DNA of 64,000 nucleotides. Origin: Methanosarcina horonobensis HB-1 = JCM 15518 (GTDB lineage Archaea > Halobacteriota > Methanosarcinia > Methanosarcinales > Methanosarcinaceae). A program made the position numbers and the translations under genes. Of the stretch, positions 2,375-58,878 are shown one piece after another. The notes beneath the pieces are model-generated. The model was not told the DNA's origin. It was given only the letters and a program-made list of their open reading frames with translations, and did no database searches. The DNA is taken from the NCBI RefSeq assembly GCF_000970285.1, contig NZ_CP009516.1, forward strand, positions 496,001-560,000. The letters are read 5' to 3'. Every line of letters starts with the position of its first letter. Positions within the stretch are counted from its first letter, which is position 1.

Positions 2375-3095
2375 AAAAAAAGCGAATGAAAACGCAGGAA
2401 ACCTCGAAAATCTCGAAGAATTTACCGAGCTTACAGTGGAAGTAGACCCTGAACTTGTAAATATCTGCAATGACTCCGGGGCAAGGACTGACGAGGCAAA
2501 AGCCATCTACATGAAAAGCCGGACAATGATCCGGGAAATTGTCGGGAACTCCACGCCCGAAGACCGCTTCCGCCAGCGCTGTGTAATTGCAACCGGCGAC
2601 CTTTCGGTTGCTGATATCATGCGTTTTACGAACGACCCCATACCTGCGGGTGTAGAAGCAATTAAAAAAGGCGCTCCTATCTTTGTGGATATTAACATGG
2701 TAAAAGCCGGGATCACAAAAGCCGGGCACAAGTCCGAAATCATCTGTGTGCTTGATGAAGACCCTGATGCCAGAATCGCCAATAAATACGGGATAACCAG
2801 GACATCAGCAGGCTTCCTGGCGGCAAGGGAAAAACTCGATGGCAGCATTATAGCAATCGGAAATGCACCTTCTGCTCTCATCATGGTCTGCAAGCTTATT
2901 GAAAAAGGTGTAAGGCCTGCCCTTATAATCGGGCTTCCTGTAGGTTTTGTAAATGCAGCCGAGTCAAGGGAAATGGTCAGGAACCTGAAAATCCCCATCC
3001 CTTCAATCAGCTGTGTAGGGACCAGGGGAGGAACTCCGATGGCCGTTGCCTGCGTAAACGAGCTCGTAGCAATCGCAAGAGAAAGTGAAGAATAA
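2364..3095 (+). CDS. cbiC: Cobalt-precorrin-8 methylmutase
   Basis: CbiC moves the C11 methyl group to C12, giving cobyrinate. The 243-residue protein has a roughly 30-residue acidic N-terminal extension, then the methylmutase core: GAPIFVDINMVKAGI (about 114-128), GNAPSALIMVCKLIEKG (about 166-182) and GLPVGFVNAAESRE (about 190-203). The position that aligns with the catalytic histidine of CobH/CbiC (usual context VHATGD) reads RCVIATGD, with isoleucine at about residue 75. That may mean a variant active site. It is the last gene of the operon; a T-rich stretch follows the stop at 3093-3095. Confidence 0.92.
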   Translation: MTTEKKANENAGNLENLEEFTELTVEVDPELVNICNDSGARTDEAKAIYMKSRTMIREIVGNSTPEDRFRQRCVIATGDLSVADIMRFTNDPIPAGVEAIKKGAPIFVDINMVKAGITKAGHKSEIICVLDEDPDARIANKYGITRTSAGFLAAREKLDGSIIAIGNAPSALIMVCKLIEKGVRPALIIGLPVGFVNAAESREMVRNLKIPIPSISCVGTRGGTPMAVACVNELVAIARESEE

Positions 3096-3099
3096 TATT

Positions 3100-3130
3100 C
3101 GCTTTCTTTTTTTGGCTTTTTTCTTTTATC
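3100..3130 (+). terminator. T-rich terminator after cbiC
   Basis: Within 10 bp of the cbiC stop come several T runs (CTTTCTTTTTTTGGC and TTTTTTCTTTT). This is the usual archaeal intrinsic termination signal. No strong hairpin is seen. Confidence 0.5.
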
Positions 3131-3294
3131 TTATCTCACTTTTGTTTTCTCACACCTTTTTAGTTACTGCTGCAGGATATTATTTTTCTTTTGAATTAAT
3201 TTATATTTGTTGTCCCCCTTTTAGTATAAAGCTCAAGAACAAATAACAAGAAACAACGTACATATTTTTTTACTTTCTTCTTGGGGTGAACTAA

Positions 3295-3723
3295 TTGGGT
3301 AATAATTTCAATAAACAGGTTATTTCAGGTATCATTATTTTGATAGCTGTTTTTATTTTTTTATGCCTTTGTTTCCTTTATTTTAGAGGATCAGCAGCGC
3401 CGCTTTTCGTAATACACAATCACGATGTTAAGAACCATGAAGTAGTAATCGAGGTACTTGATCAGAATAACAACTCAATCATAAACGAAAGATACATTCT
3501 GGAGCCTGAAAGCGACCCGTCACGACCTCGTCCTCTAAGTCTACGGTTTCATCGGGAAAAAAGAGAGTATACATTTAAAGTAACTATGGATAACCAGATT
3601 ACAAATGCGGTTAAACTGGAGATTCCGAATAGTCATGCTTTAGTCGATATATGGTTGTACAGCAAGGAATATGAGTCCAGTGAAGCTGTTCCTATTTCCA
3701 TGGAAATCGCAGAAATGGTATGA
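3295..3723 (+). CDS. Membrane-anchored protein of unknown function
   Basis: I do not recognise the family. The 142-residue protein has one N-terminal membrane segment (ISGIIILIAVFIFLCLCFLYF, shown to its last residues, about 10-30), then a soluble domain rich in beta-strand-like sequence (VIHNHDVKNHEVVIEVLDQ). That resembles an extracytoplasmic immunoglobulin-like domain, though this is inference. The start is TTG 3295, chosen because GGGGTGA lies at 3283-3289 with good spacing and no other start fits. It stands alone between the cobalamin operon and the convergent ccdA gene. Confidence 0.7.
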   Translation: MGNNFNKQVISGIIILIAVFIFLCLCFLYFRGSAAPLFVIHNHDVKNHEVVIEVLDQNNNSIINERYILEPESDPSRPRPLSLRFHREKREYTFKVTMDNQITNAVKLEIPNSHALVDIWLYSKEYESSEAVPISMEIAEMV

Positions 3724-8666: not shown

Positions 8667-9595
8667 GGCAGCTGGCTATTATTAGCGGAAAAGGTGGTTG
8701 CGGAAAGACCACTCTTACAGCTGCCTTTTCATCTCTCTCGGAAAATGCCGCACTTGCGGACTGCGATGTTGATGCATCTGATCTGCCTCTTATCCTTAAG
8801 CCTCAGGTAATTAATAGAGAGAATTGTCCGGGACTCGAGCTTGCATCCATTGACCCGAATCTCTGTACCGGTTGTAGTATTTGCCGGGAGGTGTGCAGAT
8901 TTGGAGCAGTCCTTGAAAACTTCACAATAAACCCGTATGGCTGCGAAGGCTGTGCAGTCTGTACTGTCGCCTGTCCTGAAAATGCGGTATCTTTAGTACC
9001 TAGAGTTTCAGGGCAGGCAGTTTCCTCCATAACCCGTTTCGGGCCGATGGCTCATGCAAAACTGGATATCGGAGAGGAGGCAAGTGGAAAACTTGTGAAT
9101 ATGGTTAGAAAAAAAGCAGCAGAACTTGCAGATCAATATTGCTGCAAACTTATTCTTATTGACGGCCCTCCAGGTACCGGCTGCCCGGTTATGGCAGCAA
9201 TTACCGGAACTGACCTTGTCCTTGTAGTCAGCGAACCCACTGTTTCAGGACTCCATGACCTGAAACGGGCAGTCGAGCTTACCGCTCATTTCAAAATCCC
9301 TACTGTTGCCTGCATTAACAGATATGATATCAACAAAAAAAAGAGCCTTGAAATTGAGGCTTTTTGCAGGGAAGCCGGAATTCCTCTTCTTGCCTGTTTA
9401 CCTTATACGGACATAACTACAAAGGCAATGGTAAAGGAAGAAACCGTGATCGAATATGCCGCTCACTGGATGGATTCCGGGGCTGTGGAATTCGCAAACA
9501 TTGTCCGTAAGCTCTGGGAAGAGATCGAAATGAGGCTTTCAGAGTCTTTCGAAAAAGAAACGTGTTCAAGAGCTCTCAAAATCAGGAAATCTTAG
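8663..9595 (+). CDS. MinD-superfamily ATPase with inserted ferredoxin domain 2
   Basis: Paralogue of the preceding ATPase, 310 residues. Walker A SGKGGCGKTT is near residues 8-17, ferredoxin motifs CTGCSICREVCRFGA and CEGCAVCTVACPENA near 67-115, and IDGPPGTGCPVMAA near 167-180. ATG 8663 is chosen because it overlaps the previous stop as ATGA and gives the expected N-terminus MRQLAIISGKGG; an upstream in-frame start would run deep into the neighbour. These tandem ATPases are usually found together in anaerobes, next to NifX-like genes, as here. Confidence 0.88.
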   Translation: MRQLAIISGKGGCGKTTLTAAFSSLSENAALADCDVDASDLPLILKPQVINRENCPGLELASIDPNLCTGCSICREVCRFGAVLENFTINPYGCEGCAVCTVACPENAVSLVPRVSGQAVSSITRFGPMAHAKLDIGEEASGKLVNMVRKKAAELADQYCCKLILIDGPPGTGCPVMAAITGTDLVLVVSEPTVSGLHDLKRAVELTAHFKIPTVACINRYDINKKKSLEIEAFCREAGIPLLACLPYTDITTKAMVKEETVIEYAAHWMDSGAVEFANIVRKLWEEIEMRLSESFEKETCSRALKIRKS

Positions 9596-9799: not shown

Positions 9800-10495
9800 A
9801 TGGATTATAATCAGCTTGCAGAGAAACTGGTCAAGTTCCTTGACCTTAAGTGTGAACCGGTAGCAGTCAAAGTTATTAAAAAAGGAGAGCCCATACCCGA
9901 AGGGTATCACGAACCCGATAAAAACCTCAGACACTGCCAGTCAATTATGAGAGCCAGGAAAGGGGAGTCTTTCGTAATTCCTGCAGATAAACATGCCTGC
10001 GTAGTAGGCGCCTCAAGCCTCGGGATTATTCCTACACCTGAAAAGGTAGCCTCAGGGGAGTTCCACTACAACCTGGGAATGTTTGACAGCGTGGAAGCTG
10101 CAGCCGCAATGATATCACAGCGTCCGGCTTTTGAACCCGAAAGCAGGACTGCAACCGTTGTAGGGCCTTTGAAGGATGCAAAAGTCGAGCCTGATGTGGT
10201 TGTTCTTGTGGACAAACCGGAAACTATTTACTGGATCATCCCTGCAAGTACCTACCATAAAGGTGGAAGGGTTAACTTTAGCAGCGCAGCTTTCCAGGCA
10301 ACCTGTGCCGACACAACTATCCTGCCAAGCCTGACAGGAGAAATAAATGTTTCTTTAGGTTGCTTCGGATGCAGGAAAGCTACTGATATAGAAAACAATG
10401 AAATGCTTATAGGTATTCCTTTCAACAAGCTTGAAGAAATCGTTAATGCTCTTGAAAAACTCTATGAAGGTCCTATGCCGAAAGCAAGGAAATAA
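9800..10495 (+). CDS. DUF169 family protein
   Basis: DUF169 protein of 231 residues, full length for the family. Recognisable parts are VKFLDLKCEPVAVKVIKKGE near the N-terminus, CQSIMRARKGESFVIPADKHAC (shortened here; about residues 48-69) and the C-terminal segment SLGCFGCRKATDIENNEM (about 193-210). Conserved cysteines suggest metal or cluster binding, but no reaction is known. ATG 9800 follows GAGGGAAG with suitable spacing. It stands alone, followed by two other cysteine-rich proteins of unknown function. Confidence 0.87.
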   Translation: MDYNQLAEKLVKFLDLKCEPVAVKVIKKGEPIPEGYHEPDKNLRHCQSIMRARKGESFVIPADKHACVVGASSLGIIPTPEKVASGEFHYNLGMFDSVEAAAAMISQRPAFEPESRTATVVGPLKDAKVEPDVVVLVDKPETIYWIIPASTYHKGGRVNFSSAAFQATCADTTILPSLTGEINVSLGCFGCRKATDIENNEMLIGIPFNKLEEIVNALEKLYEGPMPKARK

Positions 10496-10686
10496 CTTCC
10501 GGAGTTTTTAATTTTTTCTTATTTCTCAAACGAGAGTTTTTCTTTTCTCGTTAAGTTTTTTTAATCAGGTCTGCTCGTTATGAGTTCTACCAGTACATTT
10601 CTTATTTTCATGGAAATATTTATACCTGCAAAGTTTATTTATGATTGTAATACCTATGCATATTAAAAGCTCCGTGGAGAAAAAGT

Positions 10687-11220
10687 GTGCAGTGCGCGTT
10701 GTGCAGGAATAAGGAATGCCTTACAGGCAAAAACTGCTCCGTTATAAAATCGGGACTTGGTTATAATGGCGAGAATCTTAAGTCAATCCAGATTTCCGCC
10801 TGGCTTGAATCGGACCCTGTAAAGAGAACAAAGCTAGAGGAAATTGCAATTTACTCAAAAAGGCTTGGGTACAGAAAGATAGGAATTGCTTTCTGTATAG
10901 AGCATGAGAGGGAAGCCAGGCTGGTCTATGACATCCTCTCAAGATACTTTGAGGTATTTTCGGTTTGCTGCAAGGTTTGCAGTATTGAAAAAGAGAGCCT
11001 GAACATCAAAAAAACCGGTGACCTGGAGTTTGAGGCAGCTTGCAATCCTATCGGGCAGGCGCTGCTTCTTAATGATGATCGAACTGACCTGAATATTATG
11101 CTCGGCCTTAAAACAGGCTACGACATACTATTCTCTAAATATTCTGAAGCCCCTTCAATAACACTTCCTCTTCTGGAACTTCCCTATCAAGGGGATTCAG
11201 AAATTGATTTTATAGAATAA
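10687..11220 (+). CDS. DUF1847 cysteine-rich protein
   Basis: This 177-residue protein matches DUF1847, predicted to bind metal. The N-terminus is CALCRNKECLTGKNC, a compact cysteine cluster. Later come GIAFCIEHEREARLVYDIL and CCKVCSIEKESL, then a C-terminal ACNPIGQALLLNDDRTDLN, typical of the family. GTG 10687 is used because GGAG lies at 10676-10679. A TATA-like AAATATTTATA at about 10614-10624 gives a promoter. Function is unknown; the flanking genes are also small metal-binding proteins. Confidence 0.8.
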   Translation: MQCALCRNKECLTGKNCSVIKSGLGYNGENLKSIQISAWLESDPVKRTKLEEIAIYSKRLGYRKIGIAFCIEHEREARLVYDILSRYFEVFSVCCKVCSIEKESLNIKKTGDLEFEAACNPIGQALLLNDDRTDLNIMLGLKTGYDILFSKYSEAPSITLPLLELPYQGDSEIDFIE

Positions 11221-16826: not shown

Positions 16827-17366
16827 TCACTCTAACAACAGAATCCCGACACATGAGGTCTTTTCCGGTTTGCAGAATTCAAGAACAAGTCCTGCTTCTT
16901 CCATTGCTTTCTGGACATTTATTCCAACAGCCTCGGGTGCAAAGCGCCTCATTTCAGGCTTTATGCATTTTTCAAGGTTGCAGATCTCACATTCATTGCA
17001 GGAGCCGGGTCTCAGGAGGTGTGCAAAGGTAAAGCCTTCCCTGAAAGCTTCCTGTTCAAGCTCTAACATCTTATGAAAGGAATCCTTCCGAAGCCCTGAC
17101 CAGGCTTCAAGAACGTCCTGAATTCCTGATGTGTCATATTCGTCTACAAGGAGAAGGGCACTGCTGTACTCCCTTATGACTTTCCTGAACTCATCAATCG
17201 ACATGACATAGGGAGGGCAGCTCAACCTCTTTCCATAACCTCTGCATCCGTAAGCACACTTCAATGCAATCCTATTCTCAATAGGAATATCTCCTGCTTT
17301 CAAAAAATAAGCCTTAATTCCCATTTCCGATGCCTTTTCAACAAGGTCCTCATATTTCCCAAGCAT
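16827..17366 (-). CDS. DUF2284 metal-binding protein
   Basis: A 179-residue protein of the DUF2284 family, predicted to bind metal through several cysteines. Visible motifs are LKCAYGCRGYGKRLSCPPY (about residues 34-52) and CNECEICNLEKCIKPEMRRF (about 119-138), the latter a ferredoxin-like cluster. The last 30 residues contain two more cysteines. No reaction is known. It is convergent with the protease gene and has a 516-bp upstream region. Confidence 0.85.
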   Translation of the reverse strand: MLGKYEDLVEKASEMGIKAYFLKAGDIPIENRIALKCAYGCRGYGKRLSCPPYVMSIDEFRKVIREYSSALLLVDEYDTSGIQDVLEAWSGLRKDSFHKMLELEQEAFREGFTFAHLLRPGSCNECEICNLEKCIKPEMRRFAPEAVGINVQKAMEEAGLVLEFCKPEKTSCVGILLLE

Positions 17367-17883
17367 GATAACCCCTTTTCAAGCCCTGTCTACTTTGTTT
17401 CTGTTTATTTTACTTTTTGTTTCCTTTTAATTTGTCTCCCTTCTAATTATTTTTTCTGTTTTAGAAAAAAATGGGACTTACAATGTAATGATATTTCTTT
17501 CATCTTTTTACAGGGTAAATCTGAAAATCAAGTACTCTTACATATCTATTCATTAGTTTCTGTTAATCTCATTTTATGGATACATTTTCTATAGATTTAG
17601 AAAAATGGGAGATAAACCTGAAAAACTTACAAAAACTTCTGGAAAAATAGTGATAGTGGTAGAACAACCACTATCAAATGCGAAGGTTACATGTCAACTG
17701 CACTTAATTCTAAATTTGCACGTATAGGGTTATAATGCAAAAACATCCCATTGGCTGATTAATGAAATAATCAGGTTAAATCTCTAAACAAGTGGCATGA
17801 ACCTTTATACTATCTAAATCATGATATTTACGATATGTTTCTAGCGCTTACTTGCTTTCGAAGCACATAAGTTCTATCCGTTT
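17367..17883. other. Intergenic region, 517 bp, with a perfect hairpin
   Basis: AT-rich region between the DUF2284 start and the 3' end of the repeat-protein gene. It contains a perfect 10-bp inverted repeat at 17651-17676. No tRNA or convincing coding frame seen. Confidence 0.6.
17651..17676. repeat. Perfect 10-bp inverted repeat, 6-nt loop
   Basis: TGATAGTGGT and ACCACTATCA flank AGAACA. The stem is perfect, but no T run follows on either strand, so it does not look like a standard terminator. It could be an operator or part of a small RNA. Confidence 0.7.
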
Positions 17884-18570
17884 TCAGGCGGCTGGTCTCC
17901 AGAAGCCGGGGAAGTAATGTGGTTTATAGCTTATCTTCGATATAGTTTTCTTCTGTGTCGTCCCTGTCCAGAAACCTGGTATATAACGAGTTTTGCTCTC
18001 TATCCTTGAACTTTCCTTCGTTGTTCTCCAGAACCCTGGAATGTAGCGAGGTTTGTAGCCAGTTCTTGATGGGACTTTTTTTATTGTTATTCCTTTCCAG
18101 GATCCAGGGATATATCTGGGTTTACTCTCAACCTTCGGACTTTCCGTAACTGGACTCCAGAAGCCGGGAGTATAGCGAGGCTTATAGCTGAGCTTCGATA
18201 TCTTCTTTTTCTCTGTTATTCCTTTCCAGAAACCAGGGATATATCTAGGCTTACTCTCCGGAGCCGGTTTCCAGAATCCCGGAATATAACGAGGTTTATA
18301 AATGATCTTAGATAACTTCTTTTTCTCTACGGTTCCTTTCCAGGAGCCGGGAGTATACCTGGGTTTACTTTCTGCTGCTGGTTTCCAGAATCCGGGGACA
18401 TACCGGGGTTTGTAGCCAGTGTTCGATATAACTTTCTTCTGCGCTGTACCTTTCCAGGAACCTGGAATATAATGGGGCTTACTCTCTACTTTTGGAGATT
18501 TATTGACCTTTATCTCTGTTTTCTTAGCTGTGTTATCAGCCTTTGGTTTTACTATCTGTTCCTTAACCAA
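17884..18570 (-). CDS. Tandem-repeat protein with ten KPxYxPGxW motifs
   Basis: I do not recognise this family. The 228-residue basic protein has a 28-residue Lys-rich N-terminus with no signal peptide or membrane helix, then ten copies of a KPRYIPGFW-like motif. They alternate strictly between a form preceded by Ser (SKPRYIPGSW, followed by KGTxxKK) and one preceded by Tyr (YKPRYIPGFW, followed by KPA or similar). One pair makes a unit of about 37-44 residues, and there are five units. The only histidines replace Arg in the first and last motifs. ATG 18570 lies about 95 bp below a TATA box (ATATTTATTTATA, minus strand, near 18680-18695). Confidence 0.75.
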   Translation of the reverse strand: MVKEQIVKPKADNTAKKTEIKVNKSPKVESKPHYIPGSWKGTAQKKVISNTGYKPRYVPGFWKPAAESKPRYTPGSWKGTVEKKKLSKIIYKPRYIPGFWKPAPESKPRYIPGFWKGITEKKKISKLSYKPRYTPGFWSPVTESPKVESKPRYIPGSWKGITIKKVPSRTGYKPRYIPGFWRTTKESSRIESKTRYIPGFWTGTTQKKTISKISYKPHYFPGFWRPAA

Positions 18571-18900
18571 GATGCCGACCTCATAATATAATTTACTTTC
18601 TTTGACTATTAAATAGCATGTAAAAACATTAAATGCGTCAAATAACGCACTTAATAAGCTAGAATATGCTCTTAGACATATAAATAAATATTTAACAGTT
18701 TCTGTCGGCTTCCTGGCTATACTCAGAGTAATTTTCTGGCCAATGAATTTGATTTTGATTTAATTGAGTTCATACAGACAATATATTATTGCTAAAAAAT
18801 GTCATTAAAAAAGGCATTTTTTTTATAATTTCTGCTAAACTGGCTATTGTGGGTTACACTTCTATAATTGAGGGCAGATAAACCTAATAAAGGGATTCCC
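18571..18900. promoter_or_regulatory. Divergent promoter region, 330 bp
   Basis: Separates the repeat-protein gene (minus) from the M24 peptidase (plus). The minus-strand TATA box lies near 18680-18695. An inverted repeat, AAAATGTC near 18795 with nearby AAAGGCATTTTTTT, is AT-rich and not convincing. Nothing else is seen. Confidence 0.45.
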
Positions 18901-38372: not shown

Positions 38373-38980
38373 TTGATTTCATCCTCACTAGGCATTAGGT
38401 AACCATTTACCTATCTAATCTTATTTATAATTTTCTATACTTCTATGACATAAGATACTTATGAAGCTCCCAGACAGGACTGCACAGACTTCAAAAATCT
38501 TTATGTGTTCATCCCCACTTCACTATGTATATTTCTCATATCCTGTATATAAATCTCATTCCAAAAGGGATGGATTCCTCAATAAAGCTTAAATTTTAAT
38601 TCTTTGACCTTGAAAATTTGCCAAAAGGCTTTAACATGCAGGAACAGGAGATTAAAGCTTTTTTTCCGCCTTAAAATTAATGAGTCTTGGGATTTAATTT
38701 TTTATCGATGTCTTATATACTTCAGAAAGTTAACGTATTTAAAACAGAAGTTTACCTTTTCGGACTACAGCTTGGCCTTAACACAATCTGATCTTTTCTG
38801 TTCTTCGGATTGAGATCTCCTTACTATGCCTTTGTTGAGATTCTCTTGCTCTGGGTTCAATCCTGTTGACAATTATACAATTCTGGAAGATTTCAAAAAC
38901 AGCGTCCCTCCTACTTGTTCCTTATATACTCTGAGTAAGTTTTGCGGTGCTGCTTAATTATCAGATCTGAGTATTCAATC

Positions 38981-39062
38981 CATGAATGTATGTTTCCATG
39001 GATATTTTCCACGAATGTATGTTTCCATGGATATTTCCATGAATGTATGTTTCTATGAATTA
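38981..39062. repeat. Nearly three 28-29 bp tandem repeats
   Basis: The core GAATGTATGTTTCCATGG is repeated at 38984, 39013 and, with two changes, 39041. Each unit is followed by ATATTTTCCAC or ATATTTCCAT. The units contain CCATGG palindromes. Confidence 0.85.
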
Positions 39063-53574: not shown

Positions 53575-54273
<699 letters not shown>

Positions 54274-56936: not shown

Positions 56937-58565
56937 TCACTCCTGTTGCTCTGGTTTGAACACCTCAAGGTTCTCCCAGCTAAATTTGTCCGGAGGGCAA
57001 GCCCTTATGCATTTCTGGCAGTGTGCGCCCTCGCAAAGATCTGTACTTATCATAACCCTGTTTTCTTCATCAATTGTGATGGCTTCGTTAGGGCAGACTC
57101 TAATACACTTCCTGCATTCCGGGCAGTCAGCAACGACCATGGTCATATAGGTCCCCACTCTCTCAAGCACATGCAGACCTTCTTCCCCGAGAATAGGAAT
57201 ATCTCTCTCCACACGCTTATCCACAACAGGGTTGCTTATGGGTTCATCAAGTGATGGAAGTCCTTTCTTTTTAAGATACTTCTTAAACATCTTGAACGGC
57301 ATTCCCTCTTCCCAGTACGCAAGTTCAAGGACATAAGCATCCCGGAATTCCGGGGCAGTAGCAAACATTATGTGAGTGCCTATTATCTGGCTTGCAATGT
57401 CCTGAAGTTCCCAGAGCCTTTCTTCCGAAAGCAGGATCTCCTTTGCAACTGCAAGCGAGGTATTCCCAAGCTGGGCAATTTTTCCTGTTGAGTAAGGGAT
57501 TAGGCCAATTTTCTGGGCTTTTTCTGCATCCATATATGTGCCGGCAGCTCCTGCCATATACGCAGTGTCAATATCTGTCAGTTGAATGCCCGCAGCCGCA
57601 CAGAGAGTGATATGTCCTGCCCTGATTGCACCGATTGCTTTTCCTGCCTCTTTAAGGTCTCTTTCCGAGAAGGTTATTCTGTCCTGCAGGTGAATCAGTC
57701 CGTCAGGAGTCTTGATTTTTGGGAGCTCAACCAGATCGTGCCCCATGGCTTTTTCTATAAGAGCAATAACTCCCGTGCCTGTGATTCCTTTTGCCCTGAT
57801 CTGCCCCTCATCAAGAACTTCTCCGGTTTTAGGGTCGATAAGGTCTCCTGGATCTGATTTCATCTCTTCACTCAATACGTAATTTCTCAATGCTCCGTTC
57901 TCGAATTCAAAATCCGAAATTGCAAAGGGAGATGCAAGGGTTCCGTGCTTTATCTGTTGCCCTTCAAGAGCAGGACCTGCAGCTGCCGAGCCTGTATAAA
58001 TGATATCTTTTACTTTGAGTGCCATCTCGGCGTTAGTTCCATAGTCTGTTGCAATTGAAATCTCATCGCTATCAAGCATTCCTGATTTAGTTATCAGAGC
58101 AAGGGCATCGGCTCCTACTTCATGTTTTATTGCAGGAGGGACTACAACTTCACAGTTGAACTCCTCAAGCCCTGAAATTTCGGAGCTGGATATTATTCTT
58201 GCATCCCTGTTCTGTTCCTGTATATTGTACTTCTTTTTCTTACGTTCCCCTGCATAAGCCAGGTCTTCAATACTGATTCCCTGAAAAATGGATAACTGGA
58301 TCGGGTTTCCGCAGATAGAAAGTCTGTCCAGTTCTCCGCTTTGCACATCAAGTGTCTGGAACAGATTTTTTACTGCATTTATTGAGAGTCCATGCGCAAG
58401 ATCCTGCCCGTAATGAATTGCGAAGTCCATGTGATCCATCACATTCGCTCCTGGAAGGGGGTTTCTCAGTGTTATTACTGTCCTTTTGATTTCTTTTGTA
58501 TCCAGGTCAATCTTTTGAGCTCGATATCCACTTGTTCCCAGGTCAACTGCAACTCCATATCTCAT
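56937..58565 (-). CDS. ramA: Methylamine corrinoid protein reductive activase
   Basis: RamA uses ATP to reduce the inactive Co(II) corrinoid proteins of methylamine methyltransferases to Co(I). The 542 residues start with an ASKHA-type ATPase domain (MRYGVAVDLGTSGYRAQKID) that continues through IATDYGTNAEMAL and AYMAGAAGTYMDAEKAQKIG (about 339-358). Two C-terminal [4Fe-4S] motifs follow: CPECRKCIRVCPNEA (about 485-499) and CEGAHCQKCIRACPPD. The length and domain order match RamA rather than bacterial RACE proteins, whose ferredoxin is N-terminal. No methylamine methyltransferase genes are adjacent. Confidence 0.93.
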   Translation of the reverse strand: MRYGVAVDLGTSGYRAQKIDLDTKEIKRTVITLRNPLPGANVMDHMDFAIHYGQDLAHGLSINAVKNLFQTLDVQSGELDRLSICGNPIQLSIFQGISIEDLAYAGERKKKKYNIQEQNRDARIISSSEISGLEEFNCEVVVPPAIKHEVGADALALITKSGMLDSDEISIATDYGTNAEMALKVKDIIYTGSAAAGPALEGQQIKHGTLASPFAISDFEFENGALRNYVLSEEMKSDPGDLIDPKTGEVLDEGQIRAKGITGTGVIALIEKAMGHDLVELPKIKTPDGLIHLQDRITFSERDLKEAGKAIGAIRAGHITLCAAAGIQLTDIDTAYMAGAAGTYMDAEKAQKIGLIPYSTGKIAQLGNTSLAVAKEILLSEERLWELQDIASQIIGTHIMFATAPEFRDAYVLELAYWEEGMPFKMFKKYLKKKGLPSLDEPISNPVVDKRVERDIPILGEEGLHVLERVGTYMTMVVADCPECRKCIRVCPNEAITIDEENRVMISTDLCEGAHCQKCIRACPPDKFSWENLEVFKPEQQE

Positions 58566-58878
58566 ACAAATCCCCTCATTTTTTACTTTGCCGAGTACTT
58601 ACATCTCACTTAAGCCGTTTGAGATTTTATGTAATATTACTTTGAAAAATGACATATAAATAAATACGGTGATTTATTCATCCTCGCATATTTTAATCCC
58701 TGGTTGATTTTCTCTTATTGCCTGATCTTATTTTTAAAAAAACGCCTTCTCTAGCTTTGTTTTCTCTGTTTTCTTTTTTGCAGGCAGATTGAATGTCTGG
58801 AATCATTTGCTAAAAAAACAGATATCGGGAGAGATACGGGTAGGATATTTTTATATACTACAAATGTCTTTGTATAGC
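58566..58878. promoter_or_regulatory. Divergent region of ramA and SRP RNA
   Basis: Contains the SRP RNA TATA box TTTTTATATACTA at 58848-58860, about 25 bp before the RNA 5' end, and the ramA promoter on the minus strand. No gene seen. Confidence 0.65.

Follow-up and report, generated by a model that had tools for sequence, protein, structure and literature searches.

A conserved Methanosarcina gene encodes a repeat protein built from pairs of YxPGxW motifs

What kind of protein is made of ten copies of a short aromatic-proline motif, and what could such a chain do in the cell? The question is raised by a reading frame in the window, the whole stretch of 64,000 nucleotides of Methanosarcina horonobensis HB-1 that was analysed, which occupies positions 17884 to 18570 on the minus strand and, with TTG as its start codon, codes for 228 residues. 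Five pairs of YxPGxW motifs, with ten copies of the form [RH]YxPGxW, come after a Lys-rich N-terminus of about 32 residues, and the coding sequence is identified by its frame, by purifying selection and by its orthologs. When the same residues were shuffled 20,000 times, Y.PG.W occurred 0.005 times on average and once at most, and the frame, coordinates, length and motif number given in an earlier note on this DNA are correct. Seven bases 5' of the TTG, at 18578 to 18582 on the minus strand, a ribosome-binding site (GAGGT) can be read in the sequence, and the start sites of relatives are also preceded by a GAGG(T)-like site. These SD-like sites, together with a stop 4–10 codons upstream in most relatives, set the position of the start codon. 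The gene is single-copy in a genome that consists of one contig of 5,018,607 bases.

The motifs had been described as alternating strictly between Ser-K-P and Tyr-K-P forms, with regular linkers. Ser-Lys and Tyr-Lys do alternate before all ten motifs, whereas KP precedes only nine of them, motif 9 reading SKTRYIPGFW, with Thr in place of Pro. Likewise, the linker within a pair has a constant 16 residues, but the linkers between pairs measure 8, 8, 13 and 13 residues. The protein is strongly basic (pI 10.4, net charge +0.18 per residue), as is the family as a whole (pI 10.2–10.6 and +0.16 to +0.20 per residue in 11 members). Over 19 residues its Kyte-Doolittle mean never exceeds −0.28, and this lack of a hydrophobic segment agrees with the claim that a signal peptide and a membrane helix are lacking; no signal peptide-like or membrane segment was found in any of the 11 compared proteins (best 19-residue means of −0.28 to −0.63). 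The description as an unrecognised repeat protein rich in Lys, Tyr and Trp was also borne out.

Since omega lies at 0.25–0.43 in seven gene-pair comparisons, a chance frame can be ruled out and the frame is, as judged from sequence, almost certainly translated. None of the 11 compared frames has an internal stop. The repeat protein is constrained equally or more loosely than the neighbour genes, three of which, when compared with their G004 counterparts, gave dN/dS ratios of roughly 0.10 to 0.24. With a profile of nine relatives, we found long in-frame relatives in 12 of 30 Methanosarcina genomes (G000, G001, G004, G008, G012, G015, G019, G021, G022, G023, G040 and G041), the gene being missing from 18. 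Beyond the carriers of the genus, a search of 237 genomes from the class yielded nothing but weak matches interrupted by stop codons, and a two-pair profile run against 392 genomes of the phylum recovered six genus genomes and one stop-ridden place elsewhere. A pattern scan of one genome per species (84,980 species), which relies on short degenerate patterns that distant relatives can escape, gave seven loci, all titled Methanosarcina and including M. spelaei MC-15; a scan of species genomes with the single protein returned no relative, and the alignment-based scan returned seven. Weak stop-containing matches in G016, G117, G141 and G031, and at a second place in G012, were taken as chance. 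No relative was found in viral contigs, and phages and plasmids gave no match, which rules out a viral or plasmid origin. This is a real conserved gene, restricted to Methanosarcina in the genomes searched, and the protein is apparently undescribed as far as open-licence papers show: that literature yielded no description of the protein or of its motif, and nothing relevant on repeats, disorder or the nucleoid in Methanosarcina.

The number of motifs in relatives, a comparison that the earlier note had proposed, ranges from 8 to 18 and is even in all 11 complete genes, with 8 motifs in one gene, 10 in six, 12 in two, 14 in one and 18 in one; these eleven even counts come from related genes and are not independent events. 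The counts cover 124 motifs and leave out G008, in which a contig end cuts the gene. Two of the 18 motifs of G041 lie outside the pair pattern, so that its even number is in part an accident. The motif core is nearly invariant (Y in 123, P in 120, G in 124 and W in 122 of the 124 motifs), Arg stands before Tyr in 100 of 124, and the residue before Trp is Ser, Phe or Leu only, in all 124 motifs from the 11 genes. Column counts were made on the 55 pairs of 30 residues, omitting the 6 of 61 pairs that have 31: Ser precedes Trp in 37 first motifs, Phe or Leu does so in 51 second motifs, and Lys follows Trp in 48 first motifs. In 55 of the 61 pairs the second motif follows the first at a step of 23 residues; the step is 24 in the remaining six, which are the last pairs of genes at the second of the two chromosomal sites described below. 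Spacers between pairs measure 2, 8 or 11–16 residues over the 11 genes, and once 33, with an unpaired motif inside. The even counts and the constant internal step rule out the single motif as the repeat unit; the repeat unit is the motif pair.

In a tree of the 61 pairs (90 columns), in which many forks are unresolved, six second-site genes have their last pairs in one clade (100/98) and their first pairs in two clades. Because last and first pairs group by position in this way, we take the order of the pairs to be old. For the 228-residue protein, recent expansion had been claimed from DNA-level identity between units, and this is mostly false. Its own five pairs differ by a mean pS (synonymous difference) of 0.65, and position-matched pairs of this gene and its nearest ortholog, in G004, by 0.36–0.52. 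The divergence within the gene exceeds that between the orthologs, and most of the array therefore predates the split from G004; these values and the pair tree rule out a recent expansion of the whole array. Pairs 2 and 3 cluster weakly within the genome in both genomes (83/73 and 94/88), which may reflect local exchange. Arrays do grow from time to time, and recent expansion is real in G041, with identical or near-identical pairs, and in G012, with two pairs at 0.14. Elsewhere in the window, Tandem Repeats Finder located short tandem repeats at 38979–39060 and 54100–54172.

The gene is found at two chromosomal sites. The first, flanked by genes for a DUF2284 protein and an M24 peptidase, is occupied in G000, G004 and G041, and the second in eight carrier genomes; G023 is counted with neither group. 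In the window, homology breakpoints delimit a gained or lost module of about 1.4 kb between the DUF2284 and M24 genes (17471 to 18850, without strand): homology stops at 17317–17527 and restarts at 18829–18852 in 11 genomes whose first site lacks the gene. At the second site, an uncharacterised gene of 136 residues adjoins in seven genomes (not G022) and another of 108 residues in six (not G008, where the contig ends, and not G040). The two sites have unrelated neighbours, and among the genus genomes examined none has two copies or both sites occupied. We read for relics 17 gene-free first-site regions, which include the 11 breakpoint genomes and four regions from second-site carriers, as well as 12 stretches that surround the 108-residue gene. 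The sole relic in these regions is one YxPGxW motif at the second site of G018, beside transposase-like frames (L112, about 2516–3700), where the gene has apparently been disrupted or taken out. The M24 gene is absent from the G003 stretch that was read. In G040, the end of the repeat gene is lost and the last pair is missing, and the gene is separated by about 2.6 Mb from the 108-residue gene; the separation and the missing pair fit a rearrangement.

A DUF2284 tree of 27 of the 28 genomes with that gene (the broken G023 copy was omitted) groups the three first-site carriers within a nine-member clade (96/99); a fourteen-member clade (80/72) holds the eight carriers of the second site and the relic genome. 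Repeated loss and one early move would account for this pattern, the module consisting of the gene with its own promoter. Other features were noticed near carrier genes. On the downstream side of the G041 repeat gene lies a degraded 130-base direct copy of the start region of the M24 gene, with 75% identity (L056, about 10253–10803), which is possibly a scar, and the same stretch holds an inverted repeat whose ends resemble ACTAGTGTC and which might be a small mobile element. In G012, near-identical units of 16 bases form a long array that separates the repeat gene at the second site from the 108-residue gene (L018, about 8839–9144).

Upstream of the gene, a promoter-like block, AAATATTTATTTATATGT, is found at 18676 to 18693 on the minus strand, which we take to be a probable archaeal BRE/TATA core. 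It is common to all 11 compared genes, at both sites, with at most two changes, and sits roughly 85–105 bases 5' of the start, the block being conserved between the chromosomal sites and the leader about 100 bases long. The first-site genes and G023 also have in the leader an inverted repeat, TTAAATGCG-N8-CGCACTTAA (18629 to 18654, without strand), in which bases are changed and pairing is kept in G023; it was not seen in second-site genes. The folding energy of the leader in this genome is unexceptional (z −1.6), and a known RNA was rejected, the one match being sub-threshold and located inside the coding sequence. A second copy of AAATATTTATTTATATGT is absent from the genome at up to one mismatch, and its 15-base core occurs twice, against once for the reversed control, which rules out a regulon marked by the block. 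One of these occurrences is near the gene at 56937–58565: the sequence CCGTATTTATTTATATGT, at 58652–58669 of the window on the minus strand, has 15 bases in common with the promoter block and lies about 87 bases upstream of that gene.

AlphaFold2 gave a mean pLDDT of 40 and a pTM of 0.10 for the whole protein (11 alignment rows), and 48 and 0.11 for a two-pair unit (49 rows, alignment A3 omitting 1 of 50 two-pair windows), with no secondary structure in either case; the alignments are shallow and their rows closely related, and shallow input alone can lower pLDDT. By charge and hydropathy, all 11 members fall on the disordered side, compared with none of 30 control genes, which were hand-picked from the window's list of open reading frames. 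These predictions, as evidence and not proof, point to a disordered chain, and they speak against the fibrous nature suggested in the earlier note. Foldseek returned no match for a query that was a low-confidence model, a result that carries no weight, and a known fold was rejected on the absence of a sequence match among solved structures. NCBIfam gave no match to the 228-residue protein, and PHROGs only weak ones (best 0.0045). Against full disorder, the strict 23-residue step hints at folding of the pair, perhaps upon binding: because this step is constant, and such linker strictness is rare in disordered proteins, a pair may fold to some extent, at least when bound.

The net positive charge and the repeated aromatic motifs are observed, and fit the composition of multivalent polyanion binders. 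Our preferred reading, to which we give somewhat less than an even chance, is that the protein is a genus-restricted, cytoplasmic and disordered 'stickers on a string' binder of a polyanion, likely nucleic acid. Each YxPGxW would be a small Pro-Gly turn bracketed by an aromatic pair, with a Tyr-Trp contact, and by Arg/Lys. Two motifs and the constant 16-residue linker would make one bead, and beads separated by flexible spacers of varying length would bind the polyanion, most likely nucleic acid, with a valence tuned via the gain or loss of whole pairs. We infer here the turn geometry, the cytoplasmic location (from the missing signal), the polyanion binding and the nucleic acid partner. A core nucleoid function is argued against by the absence of the gene from 18 of the 30 genomes of the genus. 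A broader statement, which is doubtful when taken in full, would be that of a scaffold confined to Methanosarcina that uses its paired stickers to draw nucleic acid, or a single protein partner, into assemblies, with a valence that evolves pairwise from 8 to 18 motifs, a gene that was lost repeatedly and moved between sites with its promoter, and a motif grammar new for multivalent disordered proteins of archaea.

The main rival to polyanion binding is a docking scaffold, in which the motif or the pair would be a short linear motif for one folded protein partner and the chain would collect several copies of it. The conservation of the motif (G in 124 and W in 122 of 124) goes far beyond the need of a generic sticker, and the step within the pair is constant, as for a bivalent docking site. 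However, no partner gene co-travels, the neighbours at the two sites being unrelated, and sequence searches of Pfam, NCBIfam and solved structures gave no motif-binding family; we consider such docking a tentative possibility. It is unlikely that the protein acts at the surface or in a matrix, where it would bind an acidic polysaccharide coat or envelope by aromatic stacking and charge: neither a signal peptide-like nor a membrane segment is present in the 11 compared proteins, and SD-like sites, joined in most relatives by the upstream stop, fix the start codon. Polycationic aromatic repeats would nevertheless suit methanochondroitin, the acidic polysaccharide coat of Methanosarcina, and true WXXGXW proteins, with the same motif core, have N-termini that look signal-like by eye. 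A frame that is untranslated, or a decaying repeat without function, would explain the loss from most genus genomes, the relic in G018 and a constraint looser than that of the neighbours, but the seven omega values, the 11 frames free of stops and the conserved SD site and promoter block make it very hard to believe.

The protein could also be a divergent archaeal member of PF12779 (WXXGXW), by sequence the nearest known family, in which case the motif survived and both the step and the export signal disappeared. A clear match to a known repeat family, which would have refuted the earlier note, was only half realised: the 228-residue protein scores 13.5 bits, below the cut-off of 18, and the G004 ortholog 28.3 bits, above it; G041 reaches 14.0, and one of the 11 members passes. 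None of five linker-shuffled G004 copies reaches the cut-off, so that the G004 linker contributes to the score beyond motif and spacing. This match rests on a 15-residue step, which is missing in the second-site (type B) genes and in G023. Compared by hhalign with a reference alignment of just four rows, the profiles share six columns, the motif core, at a probability of 5.8% (1.2% for the full family). The comparison set consisted of four bacterial proteins that pass PF12779 (L156 was fetched and left unused, having no frame with two motifs). The aromatic-x-P-G-x-W core is present in these true members too, and Trp starts most of their motifs; the step is 14–15 residues in three, the fourth being degenerate, and all four have a signal-like N-terminus, judged by eye, which Pfam does not state as defining. 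The step of 14, the leading Trp and the export signal are all missing from our protein, which resembles WXXGXW in motif and departs from it in the features tested, the G004 score being the best counter-evidence. Such an origin is improbable on balance. A whole-genome search with PF12779 gave no match, its controls being silent too, and so carries no weight.

If the polyanion-binding reading is right, these genes offer a natural series relating motif number and spacing to the behaviour of a disordered protein, since among the eleven orthologs motif number varies by whole pairs and spacers from 2 to 16 residues, with the motif nearly constant. The gene also illustrates cleanly how an undescribed gene, confined to one lineage and held by purifying selection, is lost and changes place together with its own promoter. 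Repeat proteins peculiar to one lineage are nothing unusual; the moderate interest of this one lies in a paired grammar of varying valence that is neat and can be tested.

Among known systems, PF12779 (annotated on plasmids as 'YXWGXW repeat-containing protein', and one of the repeat families modelled in PMC8078820) has in common with our protein a repeated aromatic-x-P-G-x-W core in several copies per protein. In contrast, the first aromatic residue is Tyr in 123 of 124 motifs here and Trp in none, the steps are 23 and 15 or 20 residues instead of 14–15, and the units are paired, without a signal-like N-terminus. PF06013 (WXG100) gave weak matches in four of the 11 members, with 11.9 bits for the 228-residue protein and 26.4 for the best member, G041, against a cut-off of 27.3; membership was rejected on these scores and the match taken as chance. 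A WXG100 protein is a small hairpin of helices that carries a single WXG, whereas the protein described here is a long motif array. 'Stickers and spacers' proteins are multivalent, cationic, aromatic-rich and disordered, and our protein would work like them, with evenly repeated aromatic-basic stickers, flexible charged spacers and a high pI. Searches of Pfam, NCBIfam and solved-structure sequences showed no sequence relation to them, and what sets the Methanosarcina protein apart is its strictly paired, Pro-Gly-centred motif with a constant internal step.
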